NCBI RefSeq assembly: GCF_011761475.1
Contig: NZ_JAASRS010000001.1
Coordinates: 372,001-436,000 of the forward strand
Direction: 5' to 3'
Source: Saccharococcus thermophilus
GTDB taxonomy: Bacteria > Bacillota > Bacilli > Bacillales > Anoxybacillaceae
Length of the DNA stretch: 64,000 nt
Shown in pieces: positions 4,924 to 53,982 of this stretch. The translations under genes and the position numbers were made by a program. The notes under the pieces were generated by a model, which worked only from the letters and a program-made list of their open reading frames with translations, did no database searches and was not told the DNA's origin. Position 1 is the stretch's first letter. Each line of letters starts with the position of its first letter.

Positions 4924-6126
4924 ATGAGCGAGGAAAAAGATTTACAGCAGCTGAAAAAAGAGGCGGCTGAGCGCGCGAAACAGCTGGCAAAGGAACGGCT
5001 GGCAGCAAAGCGGGCTGCCGAACAGTCGGAACAGCCATCTGACGATGCGAAAAAAGACGTAACGGAAGAAAAAACGGAGCCGCCAGCGGACGACATCGCT
5101 TTAGCGAAGAAAAAGGCAGCGGAAGCGGCGCGGGCGAAAGCGGCGGAATTGCGGAAACAAAAAGAAGCGGCAGCGGAAGAGAAAGTGGAGCTGCCAGCGG
5201 ACGACATCGCCTTAGCGAAGAAAAAGGCGGCAGAAGCGGCACGGGCGAAAGCGGCGGAATTGCGGAAACAAAAAGAAGCGGCAGCGGAAGAGAAAGTGGA
5301 GGCGCCAGCGGACGACATCGCTTTGGCGAAGAAAAAAGCCGCGGCCGCAGCGAAAGCGAAAGCGGCGGCGCTCGCCAAACAAAAAGCGAAGGAAGCGGCG
5401 GGCAGCGAAACGGATGACGAGCTGGCAAAACAAAAAGCAATCGCGGCAGCGAAAGCCAAAGCCGCAGCTGCGGCAAAAGCAAAGGCAGCCGCGCTCGCCA
5501 AGCAGCAAGCAGGCGCAGATGCATCCGCTGACAGCGACGAGCTCGCCAAGGCAAAGGCGATTGCGGCAGCGAAAGCAAAAGCCGCGGCGGCAGCCAAGGC
5601 GAAGGCGGCGGGAGCCGAAACAACGGCGCCAAAGGAAGAAGCCCCATCGCCAAATCAGCCGCTGCTTGACAAATATGTCAAGGTGATTCGCGAACATCTC
5701 GGCGAGGATGTTCTAGAGGATGCCTATATTAACCGTCTTGCCAAAGACGTTCCGACGTTGGTCGCCAAAAAAGATACATATTACAAAATCGCCGAGTTTC
5801 TCAAATATAACGAGCAGCTAGGGTTTGACTACTTGTCGGAATTGCACGGGACCGATTTTCAAACGCATATGGAAGTATACGTGCACTTATATTCTTATAA
5901 AAATCGCCAATCGGTTGCCTTAAAAGTAAAAATCGACCGAGACGAGCCGGAAATTGATTCTCTCGTTCCGCTTTGGCAAGGGGCCAATTGGCCGGAATGC
6001 GAAGCGTACGACTTGCTTGGCATCCGCTTTAAAGGGCATCCGAACTTAATCCGCATCTTTTTAGGCGAAAGCTGGGTCGGATATCCGCTTCGCAAAGATT
6101 ATGAACCATACGACGTGGAGGTATAG
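4924..6126 (+). CDS. nuoC: NADH-quinone oxidoreductase subunit C with repetitive Ala/Lys-rich extension
   Basis: The C-terminal part, from about residue 245, is a normal 30-kDa NuoC domain ending in the signature WPECEAYDLLGIRFKGHPN and PLRKDYEP. The first ~240 residues are an unusual helix-forming, Ala/Lys/Glu-rich region. It contains 37-residue units (111-bp period at 5082, 5193 and 5304) built around PADDIALAKKKAAEAARAKA, then shorter ELAKQKAIAAAKAKA-type units. Ordinary NuoC is under 200 aa, so this protein is about twice the usual length. The extension is probably a long charged helix on the cytoplasmic side; its role is unknown. In-frame repeat changes would alter its length without breaking the domain. 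Confidence 0.93.
   Translation: MSEEKDLQQLKKEAAERAKQLAKERLAAKRAAEQSEQPSDDAKKDVTEEKTEPPADDIALAKKKAAEAARAKAAELRKQKEAAAEEKVELPADDIALAKKKAAEAARAKAAELRKQKEAAAEEKVEAPADDIALAKKKAAAAAKAKAAALAKQKAKEAAGSETDDELAKQKAIAAAKAKAAAAAKAKAAALAKQQAGADASADSDELAKAKAIAAAKAKAAAAAKAKAAGAETTAPKEEAPSPNQPLLDKYVKVIREHLGEDVLEDAYINRLAKDVPTLVAKKDTYYKIAEFLKYNEQLGFDYLSELHGTDFQTHMEVYVHLYSYKNRQSVALKVKIDRDEPEIDSLVPLWQGANWPECEAYDLLGIRFKGHPNLIRIFLGESWVGYPLRKDYEPYDVEV
5082..5640 (+). repeat. In-frame tandem repeats inside nuoC
   Basis: Units begin GCCAGCGGACGACATCGC at 5082, 5193 and 5304, exactly 111 bp (37 codons) apart and nearly identical; the third is shorter and passes into degenerate GCGAAAGCN-rich repeats to about 5620. 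Such an array can expand or contract by slippage or recombination while staying in frame. Confidence 0.85.
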
Positions 6127-28543: not shown

Positions 28544-28561
28544 GGCACCTGTCACTTGTCG
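28544..28561 (+). repeat. GGCACCTGTCACTTGTCG motif, copy 2 of 8
   Basis: Matches the GGTGCCTGTCACTTGTC consensus with small changes. The galE 3' fragment begins about 15 bp downstream. Confidence 0.75.
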
Positions 28562-28575
28562 AAAAAAAGCTCTTT

Positions 28576-28812
28576 ATAACCTCGGCAACGGCTTAGGCTA
28601 TTCCGTTAAAGAAGTGATGGAAACATGTGGAAAAGTCATCGACCGCAAAGCTGTCATTGAATCCACCGACCGCCGCCCGGGTGCCCCGGCGCGCCTTGTC
28701 GCCTCCTCGGAGAAGATTTGATAAGGAACTGGACTGGAAAGCGGAATATGCGCTTGAAGATATTATCTTTAATGCATGGAAGCGGCATAGTGGAAATGTG
28801 AAGGAAATACAG
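28576..28812 (+). pseudogene. galE 3'-end remnant, copy 1
   Basis: Translation gives YNLGNGLGYSVKEVME and, after a frameshift near 28715, DKELDWKAEYALEDIIFNAWKRH, the C-terminal ~75 residues of UDP-glucose 4-epimerase. The catalytic N-terminal three quarters are absent. A hairpin (AGACTCCTGCTGA with TCAGCGGGAGGCT) follows at about 28811-28849. Two other remnants at 33.2 and 37.1 kb begin at almost the same codon. Nonfunctional. Confidence 0.75.
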
Positions 28813-28864
28813 AGACTCCTGCTGAAGGAGTGTTGTCAGCGGGAGGCTGAATTGCCCGTCTTCA

Positions 28865-33143: not shown

Positions 33144-33163
33144 GGTGCTTGTCCCTTGGCAGC
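33144..33163 (+). repeat. Degenerate GGTGCTTGTCCCTTGGCAGC motif, copy 3 of 8
   Basis: Differs from the consensus at a few positions, but occupies the same place relative to a galE remnant as copies 2 and 6. It lies just after the MFS gene. Confidence 0.55.
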
Positions 33164-33187
33164 CGGTCGACAGCTAAATCGATACCT

Positions 33188-33415
33188 GTTTACAATCTTG
33201 GCAACGGCTTAGGCTATTCCGTCAACGAATTCATTGAAACAGATGAAAAAGTAATCGGTCGCAAAGCGTCATTGAATACACCGACCGCCGCCCGGACGAC
33301 CCGGCGCCCCTTGTCGCCTCATCGCAAAAAATTTATGAAGAACTCGCATAAAAAGCGGAATATTCTTTGGAACAAATCGTTGAAAGCGCGTGGAAATGGC
33401 ATAGTCGAAATGTGA
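33188..33415 (+). pseudogene. galE 3'-end remnant, copy 2
   Basis: YNLGNGLGYSVNEFIET, then TDRRPDDPAPLVASSQKIYEEL and AEYSLEQIVESAWKWH across frameshifts and a stop at about 33348. It starts at the same GalE residue as copies 1 and 3. It shares runs such as GGCAACGGCTTAGGCTATTC with copy 1 but is clearly diverged. Confidence 0.75.
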
Positions 33416-33420
33416 AGAAA

Positions 33421-33458
33421 ACAGCCTCCTGCTGAATGGCGTTTAGCGGGAGGCTGTT
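33421..33458 (+). terminator. Hairpin after galE remnant 2
   Basis: ACAGCCTCCTGCT pairs with AGCGGGAGGCTGT (one wobble pair). The T-tract is weak. Remnant 1 is followed by a related hairpin, so the stem was probably part of the original galE 3' end. Confidence 0.65.
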
Positions 33459-33470
33459 CAAATATGTTTT

Positions 33471-33574
33471 CTTAACTTCTTTCTTTAATTGATTCAATTA
33501 GTTTTGATATAGATGATAACCAGCGATAGTTATTAATTTGTTCCATAATTGTGTCATTATCTATTTCTTCATTT
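33471..33574 (-). repeat. Block A, left copy (3' end of an unknown minus-strand gene)
   Basis: 104 bp, about 90% identical to 42251-42354. On the minus strand both can be read as the end of a protein, here IMEQINNYRWLSSISKLIES followed by IKERS and a stop. The gene body is absent in both places. The left copy ends at a GGTGCCTGTCACC motif. Confidence 0.7.
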
Positions 33575-33578
33575 TTTC

Positions 33579-33591
33579 GGTGCCTGTCACC
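33579..33591 (+). repeat. GGTGCCTGTCACC motif, copy 4 of 8
   Basis: It lies exactly between block A and the left edge of the duplicated SEC-C segment. The other SEC-C segment at 47.15 kb reads CGGTG-CGATTTAT, lacking the 12 bases CCTGTCACCATC that are present here. Confidence 0.8.
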
Positions 33592-35210
33592 ATCCGATTT
33601 ATGGGACATGGGATTGGATTGTATCATTGGTGCAAAAAGGAAAAGCCAAGCCGCGATGTTCGTGCCCACTCTCATTTTTGCTTGAGGGCAAACAGGAGCG
33701 AGACCGCAAGAAATCGATACGGTGTGACTTCATTTTCTATGCTATAGAACAATTGGTGTTTATGGTACAATTAAGAAAATAACGGCATGGCCGAAATTGT
33801 AAAGAAGGTGAAACTATTGGCAACGATTTCGCGGAATGCTCCGTGCCGTGCGGGAGCGGCAGAAAGTATAAGCAGTGCTGCGGCAAGGAAAAAACCGTTT
33901 CGCTGCAGTCGGTTGTGGAACGGGAGTTAGGGGAATGTATGCGCGATGTATTGGCGTATGCAGCGGACCGTTATGAAGATGAGATCGTTCCGTTTCTCGA
34001 AGAGCGGCAGACGGAAGGGCTACCGGAAACGCTGGCGATCGGAATCGAACTGTTTGTCACCAACTGGGCGATTTTTTGCCTACCGCTAGAAAGCGAAAAC
34101 ACAACGATTTTCGCCTCTTATTTGCAAGACCGGCGCAGTGCGCGCTGGCGTCCGTCGGTGCGGACGCAAATTGAGTCGTGGCAAGGCGCGGTGCCGTCGT
34201 TCGACGAACTCATCGGCCGCGATGGGGAACGGAATTTGTTTGTACGGGATGTGCTGACCGGGGAAGAAAAGCAGGTCCATATTTTCGAGGCCGATGAAGT
34301 GCCGGAGATGGAAGAAGGGGATATCCTTATCGGTTTATTAGTGCCATATGGACAAGCGTATACGTATTTCACGACGCTGCTTGTGTTTCCGCACGCTGGT
34401 GCCGGACGGTTGATTGCCACACTGCGCCAGGAGCAGCACGGGGAAACCGATGGCCGCGCGTTTTTGCGCCACGCTTTTCCAGAAGCGATGGATCTTGCGG
34501 TGAGCCAGCTTATTTGGGAGTTCGTGCGGCAAATGGAATGGGAAAAGCCGGAGTACGAGGCGGTGATGCAGGAGCTAAGGAGCCGTTTCCCGAATGACCA
34601 GGAGGAGGCGCTAGTGCGGGCGCATGTCATCTGGCGCGCGTATTGCAATAAGGAGCATCCGCGTATCGGCCATCCAGCAGTATATGCGGCCACCCTCCAT
34701 TATTTCGTCTGCGCCATAGCGGGCGGGGAAGAGTTGGAGGAAGAGGAGGTCGCCTTCTTATACGAAGTGCCGCTTGACAAGATGTCCGCCAGAGTGGACG
34801 ATCTGATGCTCTTTTCTTTCGACAGCATGATCGATGATGACGACGAATGGGACGATAAAGATTTGGATTTTCTTGATGATGACGACTGGGAGCTGGTTGA
34901 TGACGAGGATGATTCTGCTGATGATTATTGGGACCTTTCCGATGAGGACGGGTGGCTCTTTGATGACGATATGGAAGAGGACGAAATCGACTTATTGTTT
35001 GACGAGCTGATGGCGAAAATGGAGGAGCTGCTCGAGAGGGAAGACTGGGATGAGAAAAAGGTGATGAAATTAACCGAAAACCTCGTGGCCGAATGGGTCG
35101 ATGCAGGAGAGATCGATGAAGCTGATGCCGAGCTAGTCTGTGAGGCGATGCAAGCGCTGGCGCTCGAGGTGATACGGACGCAAAACAAAGGCTAGCCGCG
35201 GCCGAAATCG
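33592..35210 (+). repeat. Block C, left copy (duplicated SEC-C locus)
   Basis: About 1.6 kb that is roughly 97-98% identical to 47155-48780, including some 200 bp of upstream DNA with the same ribosome site. Copies of the CCTGTCAC motif stand at both ends of this copy (33579 and 35225) and at neither end of the other. Confidence 0.9.
33817..35195 (+). pseudogene. SEC-C motif protein, frameshifted copy
   Basis: The TTG start at 33817 with GAAGGTGA upstream is intact, but one C is missing in the codons for PCPCGSG (here CCGTGCCGTG, in the other copy CCGTGCCCGTG). This shifts the frame about nine codons in. The rest (33843-35195) stays open, and a GTG at 33843 could give MPCGSGRKYKQCC, but it has no ribosome site and loses the first zinc-binding Cys. 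The body is the same acidic protein as at 47.4 kb. It may be inactive, or a shortened product may be made; a read error cannot be excluded. Confidence 0.7.
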
Positions 35211-35224
35211 AAAGCGCTGTGCTC

Positions 35225-35243
35225 GGTACCTGTCACTTGTCGG
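35225..35243 (+). repeat. GGTACCTGTCACTTGTCGG motif, copy 5 of 8
   Basis: It lies at the right edge of the SEC-C duplication and at the left edge of a truncated UDG-like gene; both neighbours are broken at this point. Confidence 0.8.
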
Positions 35244-35545
35244 CATATGTGACGGACTTTGCTAGAGTAGCTAATCATAGAGGGATCCGGGATATGAAAA
35301 AGTGCAAGGAACTGTTAATGGACGAAATACATTTATTAAATCCCCAACTGGTCATATTGGTCGGTTCAGAGCCAAGAGATGCATTTAGCCACGAACTTCG
35401 GTTGCATCCGGAAAAGTACATGAGTGTTCCGTTTTCGTTAAAAGGAGTTCCGAAAAAGACACAAATAGAGGGTCCGCTTCTCTATAAGCAACTGCGTGAA
35501 CGTCTTTATCATTTGTTAGACAAGGAAAAGGGTCAGGTTCTGTGA
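35244..35545 (+). pseudogene. C-terminal fragment of a uracil-DNA-glycosylase-like protein
   Basis: Open from the motif onward. AYVTDFARVANHRGIRD and KKCKELLMDEIHLLNPQLVI followed by LVGSEP resemble the middle and C-terminal part of UDG-superfamily proteins (the step from iTdfvK to El..l.P.lvv.lG). The N-terminal half with the catalytic loop is absent, cut at the motif. Family call is tentative. Confidence 0.4.
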
Positions 35546-35961
35546 AGCGCCGAGAATGGTCGATAGATCTCTCGGTGCTGTAGCCTTGCTGCCGTTGCGC
35601 TGTTAAGCTGAAAAGCTGGATGAGCAATATCAAGATATGGATTGTTTTGGCCATCATCACCCGCTTCATCATTTTTGGTTGGATAGGCAGCCGTTAGGAT
35701 GTAATACAAAACCGCTCGTCCCGTATAAGGTTTTACATATCGATCACCCGGCAATACATGTGGCGTTTCGCCAAGTACCGTATGATTCGTGTTCTTTTCT
35801 GCTGGCTTTTGAGCAGAAAAAGGTGCCGCGTGCGAGAATTCATTTTGCGGGTGTTTTATGGCCATTAGCATGCCGAATAGGGGCAAACAAGTTATCAGCG
35901 CGTCCATTGTTAGCAGCAAAAGTACAAGGGGCATCATGATAAAATCCCGGCTACTACTCAT
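35533..35961 (-). CDS. Small putative membrane protein, unrecognised
   Basis: 142 codons on the minus strand: an N-terminal hydrophobic segment (PLVLLLLTMDALITCLPLFG, residues about 11-30), then an extracellular-looking part with LPGDRYVKPYTGRAVLYYIL. I know no family. No strong ribosome site is visible upstream, and it overlaps the UDG-like fragment by a few bases at its 3' end, so it may be a remnant. Confidence 0.35.
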   Translation of the reverse strand: MSSSRDFIMMPLVLLLLTMDALITCLPLFGMLMAIKHPQNEFSHAAPFSAQKPAEKNTNHTVLGETPHVLPGDRYVKPYTGRAVLYYILTAAYPTKNDEAGDDGQNNPYLDIAHPAFQLNSATAARLQHREIYRPFSALHRT

Positions 35962-36027
35962 TTCCTCAGCGCCAAACAGCCTCGCCCAATCGAATGACGG
36001 AGAGAGCCTGTCGCCGCTGGCCGATGA

Positions 36028-36058
36028 AAAGAGCCGCCCCTGTTCGTTACGGCTCTTT
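36028..36058 (-). terminator. Terminator of the Rpn-type gene
   Basis: AAAGAGCCG pairs with CGGCTCTTT; on the minus strand a run of Ts follows. It lies about 30 bp past the stop codon at 36087. Confidence 0.8.
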
Positions 36059-36086
36059 GTTGGGGATGGTCGTGTCGCGCGACAGA

Positions 36087-36947
36087 TTATTTGCCCATTT
36101 CTTTCGCTAAGTCTGCCACTTCAGCAACGGTTAATCCGGTCCGTTTCGCAATCTCATGAATAGGCAGGACATCTAGTAAGTTTTTTGCGATTTCAATTGC
36201 CTTCTGTTTTTCTGCTTCTTTCACTGCTTCTTCTTTTTCCTGTTCGAAAAGCCGAATGACCTTTGTCATTTTGATCCACTCCTTTACTTTTTTGACATAT
36301 TCTTCGTCAATAAACTTATCGGTAGCGGTTAAGATGCCGGCGATGACGTGTAGTTGCGTTGGTTCGTCACGAATTTCTTTTGCGAGCTCGATCGTTTTTT
36401 CAATCATCGTTTGCCGGTCGAAACGACTATTCATAAGTGGAACGAGAATGAGTTTCATCGTTTCTTCCGCTGTTAACGGTTCGTTGTTGAGAATTTTTTC
36501 TTCGATGGCATGGAAAATCGCATCTCCGTTGTATTCGCAAAGCAATACGGCTTTCGAAGAAATCAACACATCTCCAGCGTGCAATTGTTCGTGAGCGCTT
36601 GTGACTTCGCTCGTATAAATGACAACGATATGAATAGGCCTGATTTGTTTCTGCTGTCTATAGTATGTGTGCAAAATTCGGTAAGCATAATCGAGGTACT
36701 TTAAATGGTTTTCAATAAATCGTTGGTTGCTTTCGTATTCAAGGAGAAGGATCGAATCGTCTTCGAGAAGAAACAAGGTGTCTGAACGCTTTTCATCCGC
36801 TCGTACAGCTGGATATTCATTAGGCAACAGTGTCTTAATTTTCGGCAGTCCATGTAGTCCGTACACATCGAGCGCTTGATTTTGGTACAATTCGCTTAAC
36901 GACTTAAACAAAACGTCTTTCGCATGATACGATATACCACCTGCCAT
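36087..36947 (-). CDS. Rpn/PD-(D/E)XK nuclease family putative transposase
   Basis: 286 aa. The N-terminal half has the nuclease-like core: KRSDTLFLLEDDSILLLEYES (Asp and Glu of the PD-(D/E)XK fold), then a helical region and a Lys/Glu-rich C-terminal coiled coil with PIHEIAKRTGLTVAEVADLA. Rpn proteins promote RecA-independent recombination in E. coli; for this Bacillaceae branch the role is unknown. Start ATG 36947. Its first ~34 bp and upstream DNA are duplicated at 42.36-42.51 kb. Confidence 0.7.
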   Translation of the reverse strand: MAGGISYHAKDVLFKSLSELYQNQALDVYGLHGLPKIKTLLPNEYPAVRADEKRSDTLFLLEDDSILLLEYESNQRFIENHLKYLDYAYRILHTYYRQQKQIRPIHIVVIYTSEVTSAHEQLHAGDVLISSKAVLLCEYNGDAIFHAIEEKILNNEPLTAEETMKLILVPLMNSRFDRQTMIEKTIELAKEIRDEPTQLHVIAGILTATDKFIDEEYVKKVKEWIKMTKVIRLFEQEKEEAVKEAEKQKAIEIAKNLLDVLPIHEIAKRTGLTVAEVADLAKEMGK

Positions 36948-37071
36948 TTTTCTATCCTCACTTGTTTTTACTATTATTATACTCCCCCGTCTTAGTGCGT
37001 GTCATCTCTGTCATTTGAATATGAAAATGATGTGCAGCCTTTAGGTTTGGTGCCTGTCACTTGCCAGCCTG
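36914..37071. repeat. Block B, left copy (start and upstream of the Rpn-type gene)
   Basis: About 158 bp, roughly 97% identical to 42355-42510 apart from a 3-bp gap. It runs from inside the Rpn-type gene start to the GGTGCCTGTCACTTG motif at 37049 and stops just after it. Confidence 0.85.
37049..37069 (+). repeat. GGTGCCTGTCACTTGCCAGC motif, copy 6 of 8
   Basis: Joins block B to galE remnant 3, which begins about 10 bp further right. Confidence 0.8.
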
Positions 37072-37077
37072 AAATTT

Positions 37078-37262
37078 TACTATCTTGGAAGCGGTTTAGA
37101 CTGTTCCGTGAAAGAAGTCATTGAAACATATGAAGCAAAGCGTCATTGACACACTGACCGCCGCTGGGCGCCCCGGCGCGGCCTGTCGCATCATAAAAAA
37201 ATTTACGAAGAACTTTGGTTGGAAAGCGGAATATTCGTTGGAACCAATCATCGAAAGCGTAT
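37078..37262 (+). pseudogene. galE 3'-end remnant, copy 3
   Basis: YYLGSGLDCSVKEVIET, RPGAACRIIKKIYEEL-like and WKAEYSLEPIIESV are readable with frameshifts and a missing segment near 37130-37160. The remnant ends abruptly at about 37262 and runs into unrelated DNA, so here the galE end and its hairpin are lost. Confidence 0.7.
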
Positions 37263-38118: not shown

Positions 38119-38565
38119 ATGACGAACAGTCCTGGCATGTTAAATCAGCAAGAGAAAAAAACGATAATGATTGCAGGCATTGCCACCTTATTTTTTTTGG
38201 CCACCATTTTGTTTCGTGATGAACTGTATTTTGTCGCCCAAGCAAAACAATATTTATCCATACACACCATCTTGGAATTCCTCAGCATCACCGTCTCGTT
38301 GTCCATCGCGATTCAAGGGTGGATGATTTTTCCGCAACATTTATCTAGATATCGCTTATGGTATTCGGGTGTATTTCTCATAGTCGGCATCATCGATTTA
38401 TTGCACACGCTTTCATATAAAGGCATGCCTGGCTTAATCATTACTGAAAGTTCTGCGCAAAAAGCTACATGGTTTTGGATTGCCGCTAGATTAACGCAAG
38501 CGTGCATGCTGTTTCTAATCATATTTTTTCCAGATAAACAAGTACAAAGCAGACAAAAAACATCC
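38119..38565 (+). pseudogene. MASE3-PAS-GGDEF-EAL protein, 5' part (split by IS110)
   Basis: Membrane-sensor half of a c-di-GMP enzyme. ATG 38119 follows GGGGAGGGGAG. Hydrophobic helices and DLLHTLSYKGMPGLI with ATWFWIAARLTQACMLFLI are typical of the MASE3 sensor. At about residue 149 (FPDKQVQSRQKTS) the frame enters the IS110 element. The remaining part resumes at 40016. Confidence 0.85.
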
Positions 38566-38819
38566 ATGAGTAAATTTTACTCCCCACCCAGGCATGAAAA
38601 TCCATCTCTCCTTCCCATAATGAATGATGAACGCAAACAGTTTGAAAAGACGTGCTTTTTAATGGTGGTTCGACCCTGTACAAAAAACTGTTTGAGTCCA
38701 TTTGGTGTTCCACCCATTGTGAGCCCTTTTCCTGTGAAAAGGTGACTACGAACAGAAAAATGCCTAACGTACAAGTGGACTCACTGTTTGCGAATTCATC
38801 AATGGAAGGAGTCAGGATC
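38566..38819 (+). ncRNA. Candidate bridge RNA region of the IS110 element
   Basis: In the IS110 group the long left noncoding end encodes a structured bridge RNA that pairs with target and donor DNA. Here that region holds a perfect 10-bp stem (CAAACAGTTT 38634-38643 with AAACTGTTTG 38685-38694), an overlapping partner pair (AATGGTGG 38661 with CCACCCATT 38710) and a small hairpin CTTTTC/GAAAAG near 38730. Boundaries and guide loops are not determined. Confidence 0.5.
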
Positions 38820-39956
38820 ATGGATGTGCTTTATCATCGTTGCGCAGGGTTAGATATCCATGCCAAAACGATTGTCGTTTGTGCGCTTTGGGGAGAAGAA
38901 GACCACATTCAAAAGGAGATCGAGACGTTTTCGACGTTCACCAAAGACTTGTTTCGTCTCCTGAAATGGCTCGAGGATCGAAAAATCACTCATCTAGCGA
39001 TGGAGAGCACGGGAGTTTACTGGAAACCGGTCTTTAACATTTTAGAAGACTACTTTGACATTACCTTGGCCAACGCTCAGCGTATCAAGAACGTCCCAGG
39101 GAGAAAAACGGATGTATCCGATGCGGAATGGATCGCTAAATTATTGCGTTATGGACTGATTGAAAAGAGTTTTGTGCCACCCGCGCCAATTCGGGAATTG
39201 CGGGACTTGACCCGTTTGCGCAAAAAGTGGGTGGGGCAATTGACCGCGGAAAAAAACCGAATCCATAAAGTATTAGAGTGTTCCAATATCAAGCTGGGTA
39301 CGGTGATTTCCGACATCTTCGGAGTATCGGGCCGAAAACTCTTGAACCGTTTAATGGAGCAGGGGTATATCGAAGAAGCCGACATCGACGCTTGCCTTCA
39401 CGGGAGAATGAAAGGGAAAAAGCAACAAATTCAGGAATCGCTCTTTGGGACATTAACCGAACATGAGTTATTCATGATTCGCCAATCGTGGAAGCATATC
39501 GAGTATTTGGAAAGCTTGATTCAGGAGATGGACCAACGCATCGACCATCTCTTACAGCCGTATCAACAGGAAATGGATCTTCTGATGACGATCCCTGGAG
39601 TGAAAAAGGAAACCGCCGCCGTCATCATCGCCGAAATCGGAGTGGATATGGGACAGTTCCCGACGCCGCAGCGCCTCGCTTCTTGGGCTGGAGTGGCCCC
39701 GGGAAATCACGAAAGCGCTGGAAAACGCAAAAGTACACGAACGGTAAAGGGCAATCCACATATTAAATCCGCGTTATGCGAGGCGGCATGGGCGTTATCC
39801 CGATGCAGGAATCAACCGTTGGCGGCGAAATTTTGGTCATTGGCGGCTCGCCGGGGAAAGAAAAAAGCACTCGTTGCGATCGCGCACCGAATGCTTGTCA
39901 CCATTTACTGCATGCTTTCCCGAAAAGAACCGTTTCGAGGACCACAAGTAAGTTAG
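38820..39956 (+). CDS. IS110 family transposase (DEDD recombinase)
   Basis: 378 aa. The N-terminal RuvC-like DEDD domain shows AGLDIHAKTIVVCAL, the Glu in AMESTGVYWKPVFNIL and Asps in GRKTDVSDAEWIAKLL. The C-terminal Transposase_20 domain has IPGVKKETAAVIIAEIG and WAGVAPGNHESAGKRKS with the catalytic serine. ATG 38820 is chosen by AAGGAG about 11 nt upstream; the frame is open from 38652. It appears intact. Confidence 0.93.
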   Translation: MDVLYHRCAGLDIHAKTIVVCALWGEEDHIQKEIETFSTFTKDLFRLLKWLEDRKITHLAMESTGVYWKPVFNILEDYFDITLANAQRIKNVPGRKTDVSDAEWIAKLLRYGLIEKSFVPPAPIRELRDLTRLRKKWVGQLTAEKNRIHKVLECSNIKLGTVISDIFGVSGRKLLNRLMEQGYIEEADIDACLHGRMKGKKQQIQESLFGTLTEHELFMIRQSWKHIEYLESLIQEMDQRIDHLLQPYQQEMDLLMTIPGVKKETAAVIIAEIGVDMGQFPTPQRLASWAGVAPGNHESAGKRKSTRTVKGNPHIKSALCEAAWALSRCRNQPLAAKFWSLAARRGKKKALVAIAHRMLVTIYCMLSRKEPFRGPQVS

Positions 39957-40015
39957 TATAGCCAAAATGAATACAGAATATACGAGATGCCTAAAAATAA
40001 GGCACCTCTGCTTTC

Positions 40016-42190
40016 CTGTTGTCTTTTTTGGCCATTTGTAGTGTACCCAAACTGATCACAGGATATACAGAGTTGACCGGGTTTTATGGATTTTCACAGA
40101 AAAAGACGGTGTTTATTTTTTCTCTTCTCTATGTATTTGTTATTTCTTATATTATCGTTCGCTATGAACAAAAACTTCCGCTTCTCGTTATCGATGGGAA
40201 AGGCACAACGAATTTAAAAAATTTCTTAGAATATATTGTTATCCTTTTTTATGCTTTCACCGCTTTTATGACGTTGCTTTCTTACAAAAAACAGCCCAAA
40301 AAATCCTATCTTGACCTCATATTGGCGTTTGTATTTTTAGTTTTAAGCGAACTTTTGTTTACATTGTATAAAAACGTGTACGACGTACAAAATTTTTTAG
40401 GTCATTTGTACAAAGGAATCAGTTACATTTATTTTATGAAAGGAATATACATTGCTACGATTAAAGAACCATACGATGCCCGGAAAAAGGCAGAGGAAGA
40501 ATTGAAAAAACGAGAGAAACATCTAAAAACGATCACCTCGTCATTAGGTGAGGGGGTCATCGTATTAGACAAAGACAAAAAAATAACTTTTATGAACCAA
40601 GAAGCGGAACGTTTACTCGGTTATCAAAAAAACGAATTGTTAGGAAAAGCATTGTTCCAAAAAATTCATTGCGGCAATGAAAATCAATGCGCTTCTCTTT
40701 GTGAATGCCCGATCTATCAGACGATGGAATTAAAAAAAGCATATCGCGTAGAAGAGGATTTTTGTGTTCGAAAAGATGGGACGCTGTTGCCAATTGCTTA
40801 TGTCTCTACGCCGATGATCGACGATAACGGAGAAATAATCGGCTCTGTCGTTGTCTTTCGTGATATTACTGAGCGAAAAAAATACAATGAAAAAATTAAG
40901 TATCAAGCCTACCATGATGCATTAACTGATTTGCCAAATCGCCGCTACTTGATTGAGAAGCTAAAGAACGAACTGAAAAGGGCAGAAAAACATAACAGCC
41001 AAATCGCTATACTGTACTTGGATTTAGACAACTTTAAAAACATTAATGATTCATTTGGCCATGTCATGGGAGATTTATTATTAAAAAACGTGGCGCAACG
41101 CTTGACAATGATTCATCCTGATTGCTTTATCGCCCGTTTGGGAGGAGACGAATTTGCCGTTCTTTTATCCGGAAATGATCTCAATGTCGAGGAAATAGCC
41201 TGCAAAACCATTCAAATATTAACCCAGCCGATTAAGCTTGAAAATAAAGAAGTCTTTATTACGACAAGCATAGGTATCAGCGTGTATCCAAAAGACGGGG
41301 ATGACGAAATGACCTTAATCCAACACGCCGATATGGCAATGTATGATGCGAAAAAGAAAGGAAAAAACCAATTTTCATTCTATACGACCAAACTAGAACA
41401 ACAGAGAACAAGAAAATCAAAAATTGAACAGCTGCTTCGTACCGCATTAGAAAACGAAGAGATTTCTTTATGTTATCAGCCGATCGTTGACACGGTTTCC
41501 AAACGGATTATCGGCTTAGAAGCTTTCGTTCGTTGGCACCATCCAGAGATCGGGGAGATTCCGGCCAATGAATTTATCGCGGTTGCAGAAGAAAACGGTC
41601 TCATTGTATCGCTTGGCAAGCATATATTAATAACCGCTCTTCAAGATTTAAAACATTTGCACGAAATCGGATTTGATCATTTGTACGTCAGCGTGAACCT
41701 TTCCTTACGGCAATTACGGCATCATGACTTTGCCGCGTTGATCAGTCAATTATTACAAAAGAATAAATTACAAGCAAACTATTTAGAACTAGAAATTACG
41801 GAAAATATTGCCCTATGCGACGAAAAACACGTCATCCATAGCATTCAGAAATTAAAAGATATAGGTGTCCGCATCGCGATTGATGATTTTGGAATCGGCC
41901 GTTCCTCCATCGGATATTTACGAACCTTTTCCGTTGACACATTGAAAATTGATAAATCATTCATTTTCGATGTAACAACCAATCCAAATACCGCTCATTT
42001 GACGTCTGCGCTGATCACGTTCGCGCATAACTTAAACTTGCAAGTGGTTGCCGAGGGAGTAGAAACAGCAGAACAGTTAGGCTTCTTAGAGCAGCACCAT
42101 TGCGATAAAATCCAAGGCTATTTATTTAGCCCTCCTGTTTCGTTTGAACAACTCGTTTCGCTTCTTCATAACAGTTCATCACGATGTTGA
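40016..42190 (+). pseudogene. MASE3-PAS-GGDEF-EAL protein, 3' part (split by IS110)
   Basis: Continuation of the gene at 38119. Order: last MASE3 helices, PAS domain (ITSSLGEGVIVLDKDKKITF, residues about 175-280 of this part), GGDEF (HDALTDLPNRRYLIE, RLGGDEFAVLL intact) and EAL. The EAL signature reads GLEAFVRWHHPE, so Leu is Phe, while the later DDFGIGRSSIGYL, LKIDKSFI and VVAEGVETAEQ are kept. Without its start and ribosome site it is unlikely to be made. If the element left cleanly, the protein would be about 875 aa. Confidence 0.85.
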
Positions 42191-42250: not shown

Positions 42251-42354
42251 CTTAACTTCTTTCTTTAATTGATTCAATCAGTTTTGATATAGAGGATAAC
42301 CAACGACAGTTATTAATGTGGTCCATAATCGTGTCATTATCTATTTTTTCATTT
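42251..42354 (-). repeat. Block A, right copy
   Basis: About 90% identical to 33471-33574. It joins block B with no spacer at 42354/42355. Confidence 0.75.
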
Positions 42355-42510
42355 CGTCTTTCGCATGATACGATATACCACCTGCCATTTTTCCATCCTC
42401 ACTTGTTTTTACTATTATATTCCCCCGTCTTAGTGCGTGTCATCTCTGTCATTTGAATATGAAAATGATGTGCAGCCTTTAGGTTTGGTGCCTGTCACTT
42501 GTCAGCCAGA
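42355..42510. repeat. Block B, right copy
   Basis: Near-identical to 36914-37071, covering the first codons of the Rpn-type gene, its upstream DNA and the motif. Here the rest of the Rpn-type gene is missing, so this is a fragment. Confidence 0.85.
42487..42507 (+). repeat. GGTGCCTGTCACTTGTCAGC motif, copy 7 of 8
   Basis: Last part of block B; homology to the left copy ends a few bases after the motif. The DUF488 gene follows. Confidence 0.8.
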
Positions 42511-42620
42511 TTAAAAATACCGGAGTGCGACCCGGCAAAACAGAGAGATTGCTTCCCTTTTTGTTTTGGGAAAGATGCGCTATGATAATTTTAAGAGGGT
42601 TTCAAGAGGGAGTGGGTGGA

Positions 42621-42986
42621 ATGGCCGGAGATTATTTTTTAAAAAGAATTTATGAACCGTATGATTCAGCAGATGGAAAACGAATTTTAATCGATCGGAT
42701 TTGGCCGAGAGGCATCTCTAAAACGGAAGCAAAAATTGATCTGTGGATGAAAGAGATTGCCCCAAGCCCCGAACTTAGAAAATGGTTTGATCATAAAAGA
42801 GAGCGGTTTCAAGAATTTTCAAAGCGTTATGTGACGGAGCTTGAAACGGAGGAACAAAAACAAATGCTTGTCAGGGAACTGATTGCGATGGCAAAAAAAG
42901 AAAAAGTAACCCTCCTTTACGGGGCTAAGGATCAAGAATGCAATCATGCCGTTGTGTTACGAAACTTTTTAATAGGCGAACGCTAG
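42621..42986 (+). CDS. DUF488 family protein
   Basis: 121 aa. KRIYEPYDSADGKRILIDRI and WPRGISKTEAKIDLWMKEIAPS are the strong signature of the DUF488 (YeaO-like) family, of unknown biochemical function. The C-terminal KEKVTLLYGAKDQECNHAVV is also conserved. ATG 42621 follows GAGGGAGTGGGTGG; the frame opens earlier without a site. A hairpin follows at 42983-43025. Confidence 0.85.
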   Translation: MAGDYFLKRIYEPYDSADGKRILIDRIWPRGISKTEAKIDLWMKEIAPSPELRKWFDHKRERFQEFSKRYVTELETEEQKQMLVRELIAMAKKEKVTLLYGAKDQECNHAVVLRNFLIGER

Positions 42987-43033: not shown

Positions 43034-43046
43034 GGCGCCTGTCACC
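43034..43046 (+). repeat. GGCGCCTGTCACC motif, copy 8 of 8
   Basis: Lies between the DUF488 hairpin and the ribosome site of the macro-domain gene, about 28 bp before its start. Confidence 0.7.
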
Positions 43047-47154: not shown

Positions 47155-48780
47155 GTGCGATTTATAGGACATGGGATTGGCTTGTATCACTGGTGCAAAA
47201 AGGAAAAGCCAAGCCGCGATGTTCGTGCCCACTCTCATTTTTGCTTGAGGACAAACAGGAGCGAGACCGCAAGAAATCGATACGGTGTGACTTCATTTTC
47301 TATGCTATAGAACAATTGGTGTTTATGGTACAATTAAGAAAATAACGGCATGGCCGAATTTGTAAAGAAGGTGAAACTATTGGCAACGATTTCGCGGAAT
47401 GCTCCGTGCCCGTGCGGGAGCGGCAGAAAGTATAAGCATTGCTGCGGCAAGGAAAAAACCGTTTCGCTGCAGTCGGTTTTGGAACGGGAGTTAGGGGAAT
47501 GTATGCGCGATGTATTGGCGTATGCAACAGACCGTTATGAAGATGAGATCGTTCCGTTTCTCGAAGAGCGGCAGACGGAAGGGCTACCGGAAACGCTGGC
47601 GATCGGAATCGAACTGTTTGTCACCAACTGGGCGATTTTCTGCCTACCGCTAGAAAGCGAAGACACAACGATTTTTGCCTCTTATTTGCAAGACCGTCGC
47701 AGTGCGCGCTGGCGTCCGTCGGTGCGGACGCAAATTGAGTCGTGGCAAGGCGCGGTGCCGTCGTTCGACGAACTCATCGGCCGCGATGGGGAACGGAATT
47801 TATTCGTCCGGGATGTGCTGACCGGGGAAGAAAAGCAGGTCCATATTTTCGAGGCCGATAAAGTGCCGGAGATGGAAGAAGGGGATATCCTTATCGGTTT
47901 ATTAGTGCCATATGGACAAGCGTATACGTATTTCACAACGCTGCTTGTGTTTCCGCACGCTGGTGCCGGACGGTTGATCGCTACACTGCGCCAGGAGCAG
48001 GAGCAGCACGGGGAAACCGATGGCCGCGCGTTTTTGCGCCACGCTTTTCCAGAAGCGATGGATCTTGCGGTGAGCCAGCTTATTTGGGAGTTCGTGCGGC
48101 AAATGGAATGGGAAAAGCCGGAGTACGAGGCGGTGATGCAGGAGCTAAGGAGCCGTTTCCCGAATGACCAGGAGGAGGCGCTAGTGCGGGCGCATGTCAT
48201 CTGGCGCGCGTATTGCAATAAGGAGCATCCGCGTATCGGCCATCCAGCAGTATATGCGGCCGCCCTCCATTATTTCGTCTGCGCCATAGCGGGCGGGGAA
48301 GAGTTGGAGGAAGAGGAGGTCGCCTTCTTATACGAAGTGCCGCTTGACAAGATGTCCGCCAGAGTGGACGATCTGATGCTCTTTTCTTTCGACAGCATGA
48401 TCGATGATGACGACGAATGGGACGATAAAGATTTGGATTTTCTTGATAATGACGACTGGGAGCTGGTTGATGACGAGGATGATTCTGCTAATGATTATTG
48501 GGACCTTTCCGATGAGGACGGGTGGCTCTTTGATGACGATATGGAAGAGGACGAAATCGACTTATTGTTTGACGAGCTGATGGCGAAAATGGAGGAGCTG
48601 CTCGAGCGGGAAGGCTGGGATGAGAAAAAGGTGATGAAATTAACCGAAAACCTCGTGGCCGAATGGGTCGATGCAGGGGAGATCGATGAAGCTGATGCCG
48701 AGCTAGTCTGTGAGGCGATGCAAGCGCTGGCGCTCGAGGTGATACGGGCGCAACACAAAGGCTAGCCGCGGCCGAAATCG
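47155..48780 (+). repeat. Block C, right copy (duplicated SEC-C locus)
   Basis: Matches 33592-35210. It includes an insertion of two codons (GluGln) near 48001 relative to the left copy and has the undamaged 5' end of the gene. No CCTGTCAC motif at either edge. Confidence 0.9.
47380..48765 (+). CDS. SEC-C zinc-motif protein with acidic C-terminus
   Basis: 461 aa. The SEC-C zinc knuckle PCPCGSGRKYKHCCGKEK lies at residues about 8-25 from the TTG start at 47380, which has GAAGGTGA upstream; an in-frame ATG at 47350 is possible. A central helical region (residues about 30-310) has no motif known to me. The last ~150 residues are very acidic, with runs such as DDDDEWDDKDLDFLD and DDEDDSANDYWDLSDEDGW. 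SEC-C motifs bind zinc and often contact SecB or ribosome-linked partners; here the role is unknown. This is the intact member of the pair. Confidence 0.75.
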   Translation: MATISRNAPCPCGSGRKYKHCCGKEKTVSLQSVLERELGECMRDVLAYATDRYEDEIVPFLEERQTEGLPETLAIGIELFVTNWAIFCLPLESEDTTIFASYLQDRRSARWRPSVRTQIESWQGAVPSFDELIGRDGERNLFVRDVLTGEEKQVHIFEADKVPEMEEGDILIGLLVPYGQAYTYFTTLLVFPHAGAGRLIATLRQEQEQHGETDGRAFLRHAFPEAMDLAVSQLIWEFVRQMEWEKPEYEAVMQELRSRFPNDQEEALVRAHVIWRAYCNKEHPRIGHPAVYAAALHYFVCAIAGGEELEEEEVAFLYEVPLDKMSARVDDLMLFSFDSMIDDDDEWDDKDLDFLDNDDWELVDDEDDSANDYWDLSDEDGWLFDDDMEEDEIDLLFDELMAKMEELLEREGWDEKKVMKLTENLVAEWVDAGEIDEADAELVCEAMQALALEVIRAQHKG

Positions 48781-48787
48781 AGAGCGC

Positions 48788-53944: not shown

Positions 53945-53982
53945 TCCACACAGGAGACTGAATATTCAGTCTCCTGTGTGGA
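53945..53982. repeat. 38-bp perfect palindrome after the IS256 transposase gene
   Basis: Left arm TCCACACAGGAGACTGAAT (53945-53963) and its exact complement (53964-53982) with no spacer. It would form a 19-bp cruciform or RNA hairpin without a T-tract. It lies inside the IS, 40 bp after the stop codon. Confidence 0.85.

Follow-up and report, generated by a model that had tools for sequence, protein, structure and literature searches.

A 260-base stretch of the Saccharococcus thermophilus genome is a decayed mosaic relic, neither a gene nor a functional unit. This block occupies positions 42251-42510 of the 64,000-nucleotide segment of contig NZ_JAASRS010000001.1 analyzed here, which is termed the window. 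It is intergenic and non-coding, and it consists of two broken gene ends that both have copies elsewhere in the window. Its right edge is set by a short motif, GGTGCCTGTCAC, as the original prediction had it. Very probably, this motif represents a REP-type site in Bacillales, one without the usual GTAG tag. We put at about an even chance the reading that the block is what an internal deletion has left of a copied version of the neighboring segment 33471-37072, bordered on the right by the motif and lodged between the terminator of a GGDEF-EAL gene and the leader of a DUF488 gene.

Composition of the block

Comparison of the window with itself by BLASTN pairs the left piece of the block with 33471-33574 at 92.4% identity and without gaps (E 1e-37), in an alignment that starts one base earlier on both sides (42250 and 33470), and the right piece with 36914-37072 at 95.6% identity and with one 3-nt gap (E 2e-67). 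These E-values exclude a chance match. The two pieces lie on the same strand and abut without a spacer. All of this agrees with the original prediction, except that the source of the right piece ends at 37072 instead of 37071. No further copy of either piece was found in the whole genome (3.145 Mb) beyond these three places. At the exact inner breakpoint, 42354/42355, a check for microhomology gave zero shared bases; if three T are assumed to have been lost from the left copy, the pieces could overlap by 2 nt (CG). The coordinates of the block and of the features around it are collected in the table.

Table. Features of the block and of the surrounding island (window coordinates)
Feature	Position	Strand	Remark
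Left piece	42251..42354	-	Pseudogene 3′ end, peptide NEKIDNDTIMDHINNCRWLSSISKLIESIKERS*; other copy 33471-33574
Other copy of left piece	33471..33574	-	Ends 4 nt before the motif at 33579
Right piece	42355..42510	-	First 11 codons of the Rpn-like gene, leader, motif, 12 nt
Other copy of right piece	36914..37072	-	Start of the intact Rpn-like gene
REP-like motif GGTGCCTGTCACTTGTCAGCC	42487..42507	+	Right border of the block
Left flank gene	40019..42190	+	PAS-GGDEF-EAL protein, then its terminator
Right flank gene	42525..42986	+	DUF488 protein; own upstream region kept right of the block
Rpn-like gene, 286 aa	36087..36947	-	TIGR01784 match below cut-off
Motif copy GGCACCTGTCAC	28544..28555	+	Precedes galE fragment 28570-28849
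Motif copy GGTGCTTGTCCC	33144..33155	+	After MFS gene, before galE fragment 33186-33456; also in G001, G032
Motif copy	33579..33590	+	Left edge of the SEC-C unit
SEC-C protein unit	33595..35217	+	Flanked by two motifs; 97.8% copy at 47158-48787
Motif copy GGTACCTGTCAC	35225..35236	+	Right edge of the SEC-C unit
Motif copy	37049..37060	+	Upstream of the Rpn-like gene; T. altinsuensis homology ends there
Third galE 3′ fragment	37076..37259	+	Follows motif
Motif copy	43034..43045	+	Between DUF488 and macro-domain genes; same place in G001, G034

An open frame ends in the left piece, as ...IDNDTIMEQINNYRWLSSISKLIESIKERS*, and this frame does not continue into that of the right piece. Four of the eight differences in the left pair alter the peptide. 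Sought as part of a known gene, the left piece had matches no better than chance among 300 genomes of the order, and it has no match in phages. The right piece has the content that had been predicted for it, namely the first 11 codons of the Rpn-like gene (MAGGISYHAKD; gene start 36947, minus strand), a leader of about 100 nt, the motif (at 37049 in the Rpn locus and 42487 in the block) and 12 more bases. The block has no match in plasmids, and an Rfam search of 28-49 kb returned no match.

The gene from which the right piece is taken had been labeled Rpn-type, and this label is weakly supported. Its protein resembles the Rpn recombination-promoting nucleases in a weak, nearly full-length match to the profile TIGR01784 (E 5e-5). 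It differs from this family in that its score of 23 bits is under the curated cut-off of 52, and in that it has no Pfam nuclease match. A structure model of the protein, with a mean pLDDT of 51, was too poor and was set aside.

Motif copies and breakpoints in the island

The motif of the block is one of several in its neighborhood. Near-matches to GGTGCCTGTCACTTG number 7 in the window against 0.9 expected, and with one mismatch allowed the whole genome contains 18 motif matches versus 2 for the reversed pattern. Three galE 3′ fragments are found in the window, each 15 to 30 nt after a motif. The second copy of the SEC-C unit, at 47158-48787, retains a truncated motif, TTTCGGTG, at its left edge. 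Between 28.5 and 43.1 kb, 8 of 15 self-repeat breakpoints are no more than 35 nt away from a motif, and the seven motifs account for 4% of this interval (binomial p 3e-8). When breakpoints are merged, 6 of 12 are near motifs (p 3e-6), and rotation of the motif set gives p 0.003; this test is not fully independent, as the breakpoints and the motif copies belong in part to shared repeats.

The Rpn-like unit also changes place, and a further breakpoint is seen in Thermolongibacillus altinsuensis (genome G040), where this unit is located elsewhere, with DUF488 on one side and an EamA transporter gene on the other. Homology to the unit in the window stops there precisely where the motif ends, at 37060. 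The T. altinsuensis unit has also undergone an independent internal deletion, with about 36407-36898 missing. At its other end (L025:1155-1170) it breaks at a half-motif, CTGTCACTT on the coding strand, and the window counterpart of this break is CTGTCGCG together with the terminator of the Rpn-like gene. T. altinsuensis has two copies of the EamA transporter gene in this region (L171/L172), one of them directly after the deleted Rpn-like unit and its motif.

Other repeats and mobile elements are also present. An IS110-family element at 38561-40103 of the window (transposase 38652-39956) splits a membrane-sensor GGDEF-EAL gene; relatives are unbroken across 38560/40096, and the element edges have an 8-nt overlap. 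In G001 (L145), a stretch of about 146 nt that separates the MFS and DUF488 genes is similar to the sequence preceding IS200-type transposase genes in G036 and G034 (L092, L098), and is probably the remnant of an IS200-type element beside a motif. Elsewhere in the window there are a diverged overlapping repeat of about 450 bases (5050-5609, 74%) and a perfect 38-nt palindrome (53945-53982).

The motif family in Bacillales and the linked RAYT gene

Among the 41 genomes of the family, 30 contain GGTGCCTGTCAC and none gives a match to the reversed pattern. A longer form of the motif, GTGCCTGTCACnnnYCGA, is present 116 times in total, spread over 27 of the 41. Across the order, this form is present in 95 of 300 genomes at up to 93 copies, and the reversed pattern has two matches in all. 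Like REP sequences, the motif is multicopy and above chance, and its position is intergenic as read at individual sites. The consensus of 67 sites is G-rich upstream and has CGA downstream, and the GT[AG]G tag of REPs, 5′ of the hairpin, is absent. The GTG-CCTGT-CAC stem is extended at several sites, with energies of -4 to -7 kcal/mol, and covariation of the stem pairs is weak (p 0.008 at one outer pair). No hairpin is predicted at the motif of the block itself. The text of the motif was not found in bacterial papers within the part of the literature that was searched.

Inverted pairs of the motif exist in some genomes. A perfect 38-nt pair, GTGCCTGTCACTTGTCGA-AT-TCGACAAGTGACAGGCAC, is located at C2:272387-272424 (L185:14388) of G087, a genome with 93 motif copies, and two more close inverted pairs are found in G281 and G067. 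These pairs resemble REPINs and BIMEs, which are inverted REP pairs; the motifs of the window and its relatives differ in being single, and no close inverted pair is present in the window. Motif copies point one way in 11 of 11 cases in G109 and in 11 of 12 in G006, and several genomes show the same strand bias.

The motif is closely associated with the gene for a Y1 transposase of about 195 aa, a single-strand DNA transposase of the REP-associated tyrosine type, termed RAYT. In the family, 30 of the 116 motif copies lie within 3 kb of a RAYT gene, compared to 0.38 expected. Among 25 RAYT genes or fragments, 19 are flanked by a motif within 3 kb, 8 of them within 200 nt, and genomes with a full-length RAYT gene have more motifs (Mann-Whitney p 1.6e-4). 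The end of an IS200/IS605 element was also considered as an identity for the motif, and was rejected on the finding of no motif within 5 kb of 45 IS200 tnpA genes.

The RAYT protein matches Y1_Tnp (E 3e-15), and its conserved TNHFHLQ and RYIHLNP align as HuH and Y---NP, which are class-2 signatures (PMC6006769). All 11 of 11 members match the NCBIfam model REP_Tyr_transpos (NF047646), the first of them at 72.7 bits, just under the cut-off of 80, and a profile match links RAYT to the E. coli TnpA-REP 4er8 (E 2e-5). The gene often found beside RAYT is presumably comM. In G028, the RAYT stop codon is followed at once by the motif (one mismatch), then by TTGTCAGCC and a galE fragment, so that motif and galE are arranged as they are in the window. 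Outside the family, motif clusters were fetched from nine motif-rich genomes, and 6 of the 9 contain a RAYT homologue (58 to 66% identity), a co-location check and not an unbiased rate, as these stretches were chosen for their motif clusters. For several of these homologues, the distance to a motif is between a few bases and a few hundred. In G109 (L189 5617-6139), the RAYT frame breaks off in the region of the catalytic tyrosine, where a motif copy follows directly.

These features can be compared with known systems of REPs and TnpA-REP/RAYT (REPtrons), which are HUH-Y1 systems related to IS200/IS605. The likeness consists of a multicopy short repeat around or beside a gene of class-2 TnpA-Y1 type (HuH, Y---NP), of the absence of the motif around IS200 tnpA, and of the inverted pairs in some genomes. 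The Bacillales motif differs in its host, in its lack of a GTAG or GTGG tag, in its weak stem (3-5 bp), in its low copy number in the thermophile family, and in being mostly single rather than paired. We infer that the motif is recognized by this RAYT as a REP-type site. In vitro, E. coli TnpA-REP cuts REP sites in single-stranded DNA and joins them again (PMC8266576), and motif-to-motif joining is therefore mechanistically possible. No RAYT was found in the S. thermophilus genome, in two other genomes of the genus or in T. altinsuensis, so that any action of the enzyme at the block would be past or from outside. The missing GTAG tag and the lack of a predicted hairpin at the motif of the block count against such action as well. 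The motif copies of the window may be relics, or may have recombined passively.

Origin of the block

Relatives allow the insertion site to be defined. In T. altinsuensis (L025; L049 is the same locus) and G036, homology to the left flank ends at exactly 42251, and the sequence then runs into the end of a neighboring gene, which in T. altinsuensis is a 108-nt remnant. Homology before the DUF488 gene resumes at 42514 in T. altinsuensis and at 42518 in G001. Since relatives match up to 42251 and again from 42514/42518, the block is derived in the S. thermophilus lineage and its outer edges are sharp.

The block had been described as a chimera of two other loci, formed by stepwise capture or by template switching. 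The derived mosaic is upheld, and two unrelated donors are not required, because the pieces are colinear on the segment 33471-37072. The motif sets the right edge and is found at other breakpoints as well. The join can be explained in one step by an internal deletion of about 3.3 kb, and T. altinsuensis offers a parallel in its own deletion within the Rpn-like unit. Given that the pieces share order and strand within 33471-37072, an agreement that chance would produce one time in four, an internally deleted copy of this segment is the simplest account.

Under this account, the segment comprising the left piece through to the Rpn-like gene, its leader and the motif would have been copied to the 42.25-kb site. 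The middle of the copy would later have been lost, which would join the pieces without a second donor. Motif copies may have acted as exchange points, either through single-strand cleavage and rejoining by RAYT or through passive template switching at the repeat. If the motif is a REP, RAYT would be predicted to cleave at or beside GTGCCTGTCAC. Joining by deletion is favored over two captures, though not strongly. It speaks against the account that no motif marks the left border of the block. A longer copy that holds both pieces was sought in the 41 family genomes and none was found; likewise, no genome among the 41 of the family and the 300 of the order was found to have the two pieces side by side, or linked by a longer stretch at the 42.25-kb site.

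A possible though less probable alternative is stepwise assembly, in which the left piece and then the Rpn-start piece came from two loci by capture or template switching, the second through exchange at the motif. What keeps it alive is unequal divergence, which a single duplication does not predict: the left pair has 8 substitutions in 104 positions (7.7%), and the right pair has 2 in 144 up to the motif (p=0.02) or 4 in 156 over the whole piece (p=0.07), about 1.4 to 2.6%. In addition, the right piece is closer between the block and the Rpn locus than either is to T. altinsuensis, and the motif between the MFS gene and DUF488 in G001 could be a resident exchange site. However, stepwise assembly needs two events, leaves the shared order and strand without a reason, and finds no microhomology at the inner junction.

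It is unlikely that the motif is incidental, that is, a conserved stretch within DNA copied by illegitimate recombination in a relaxed intergenic region. Such a history would fit an island in which deletions and IS insertions are common, a genome without RAYT, and a block in which neither the inner nor the left junction is at a motif, but it is opposed by the above-chance breakpoints at motif copies and by the divergence of the window and T. altinsuensis Rpn-like units exactly at the motif end. That the block is ancestral and the other two places derived from it is very improbable: the direction does rest on few genomes, because no relative with one piece only at the site was found, but the block is missing there in T. 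altinsuensis and G036, close orthologues of the intact Rpn-like gene are known from Geobacillus, Parageobacillus and Anoxybacillus, and the block has lost 3 nt that are kept both in the Rpn locus and in T. altinsuensis. For the right piece, such an origin is already contradicted.

The studies of REPs and RAYTs consulted here are mostly concerned with proteobacteria, cyanobacteria and Bacteroidetes (PMC6006769, PMC3733652), and the spread of REP sequences is an open question. It can be suggested, more tentatively than any account of the block given as possible above, that Bacillales have a widespread, undescribed REP-RAYT system with GTGCCTGTCACnnnYCGA, whose cleavage also moves or joins neighboring gene fragments and so leaves mosaics. 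The block itself is ordinary and its lesson modest; the notable part is the motif at its border, with its probable REP-type family and putative cognate RAYT. A RAYT-tied repeat of Bacillales that has a different tag, and breakpoints at its copies, would offer hosts suited to experiments on cleavage and joining.
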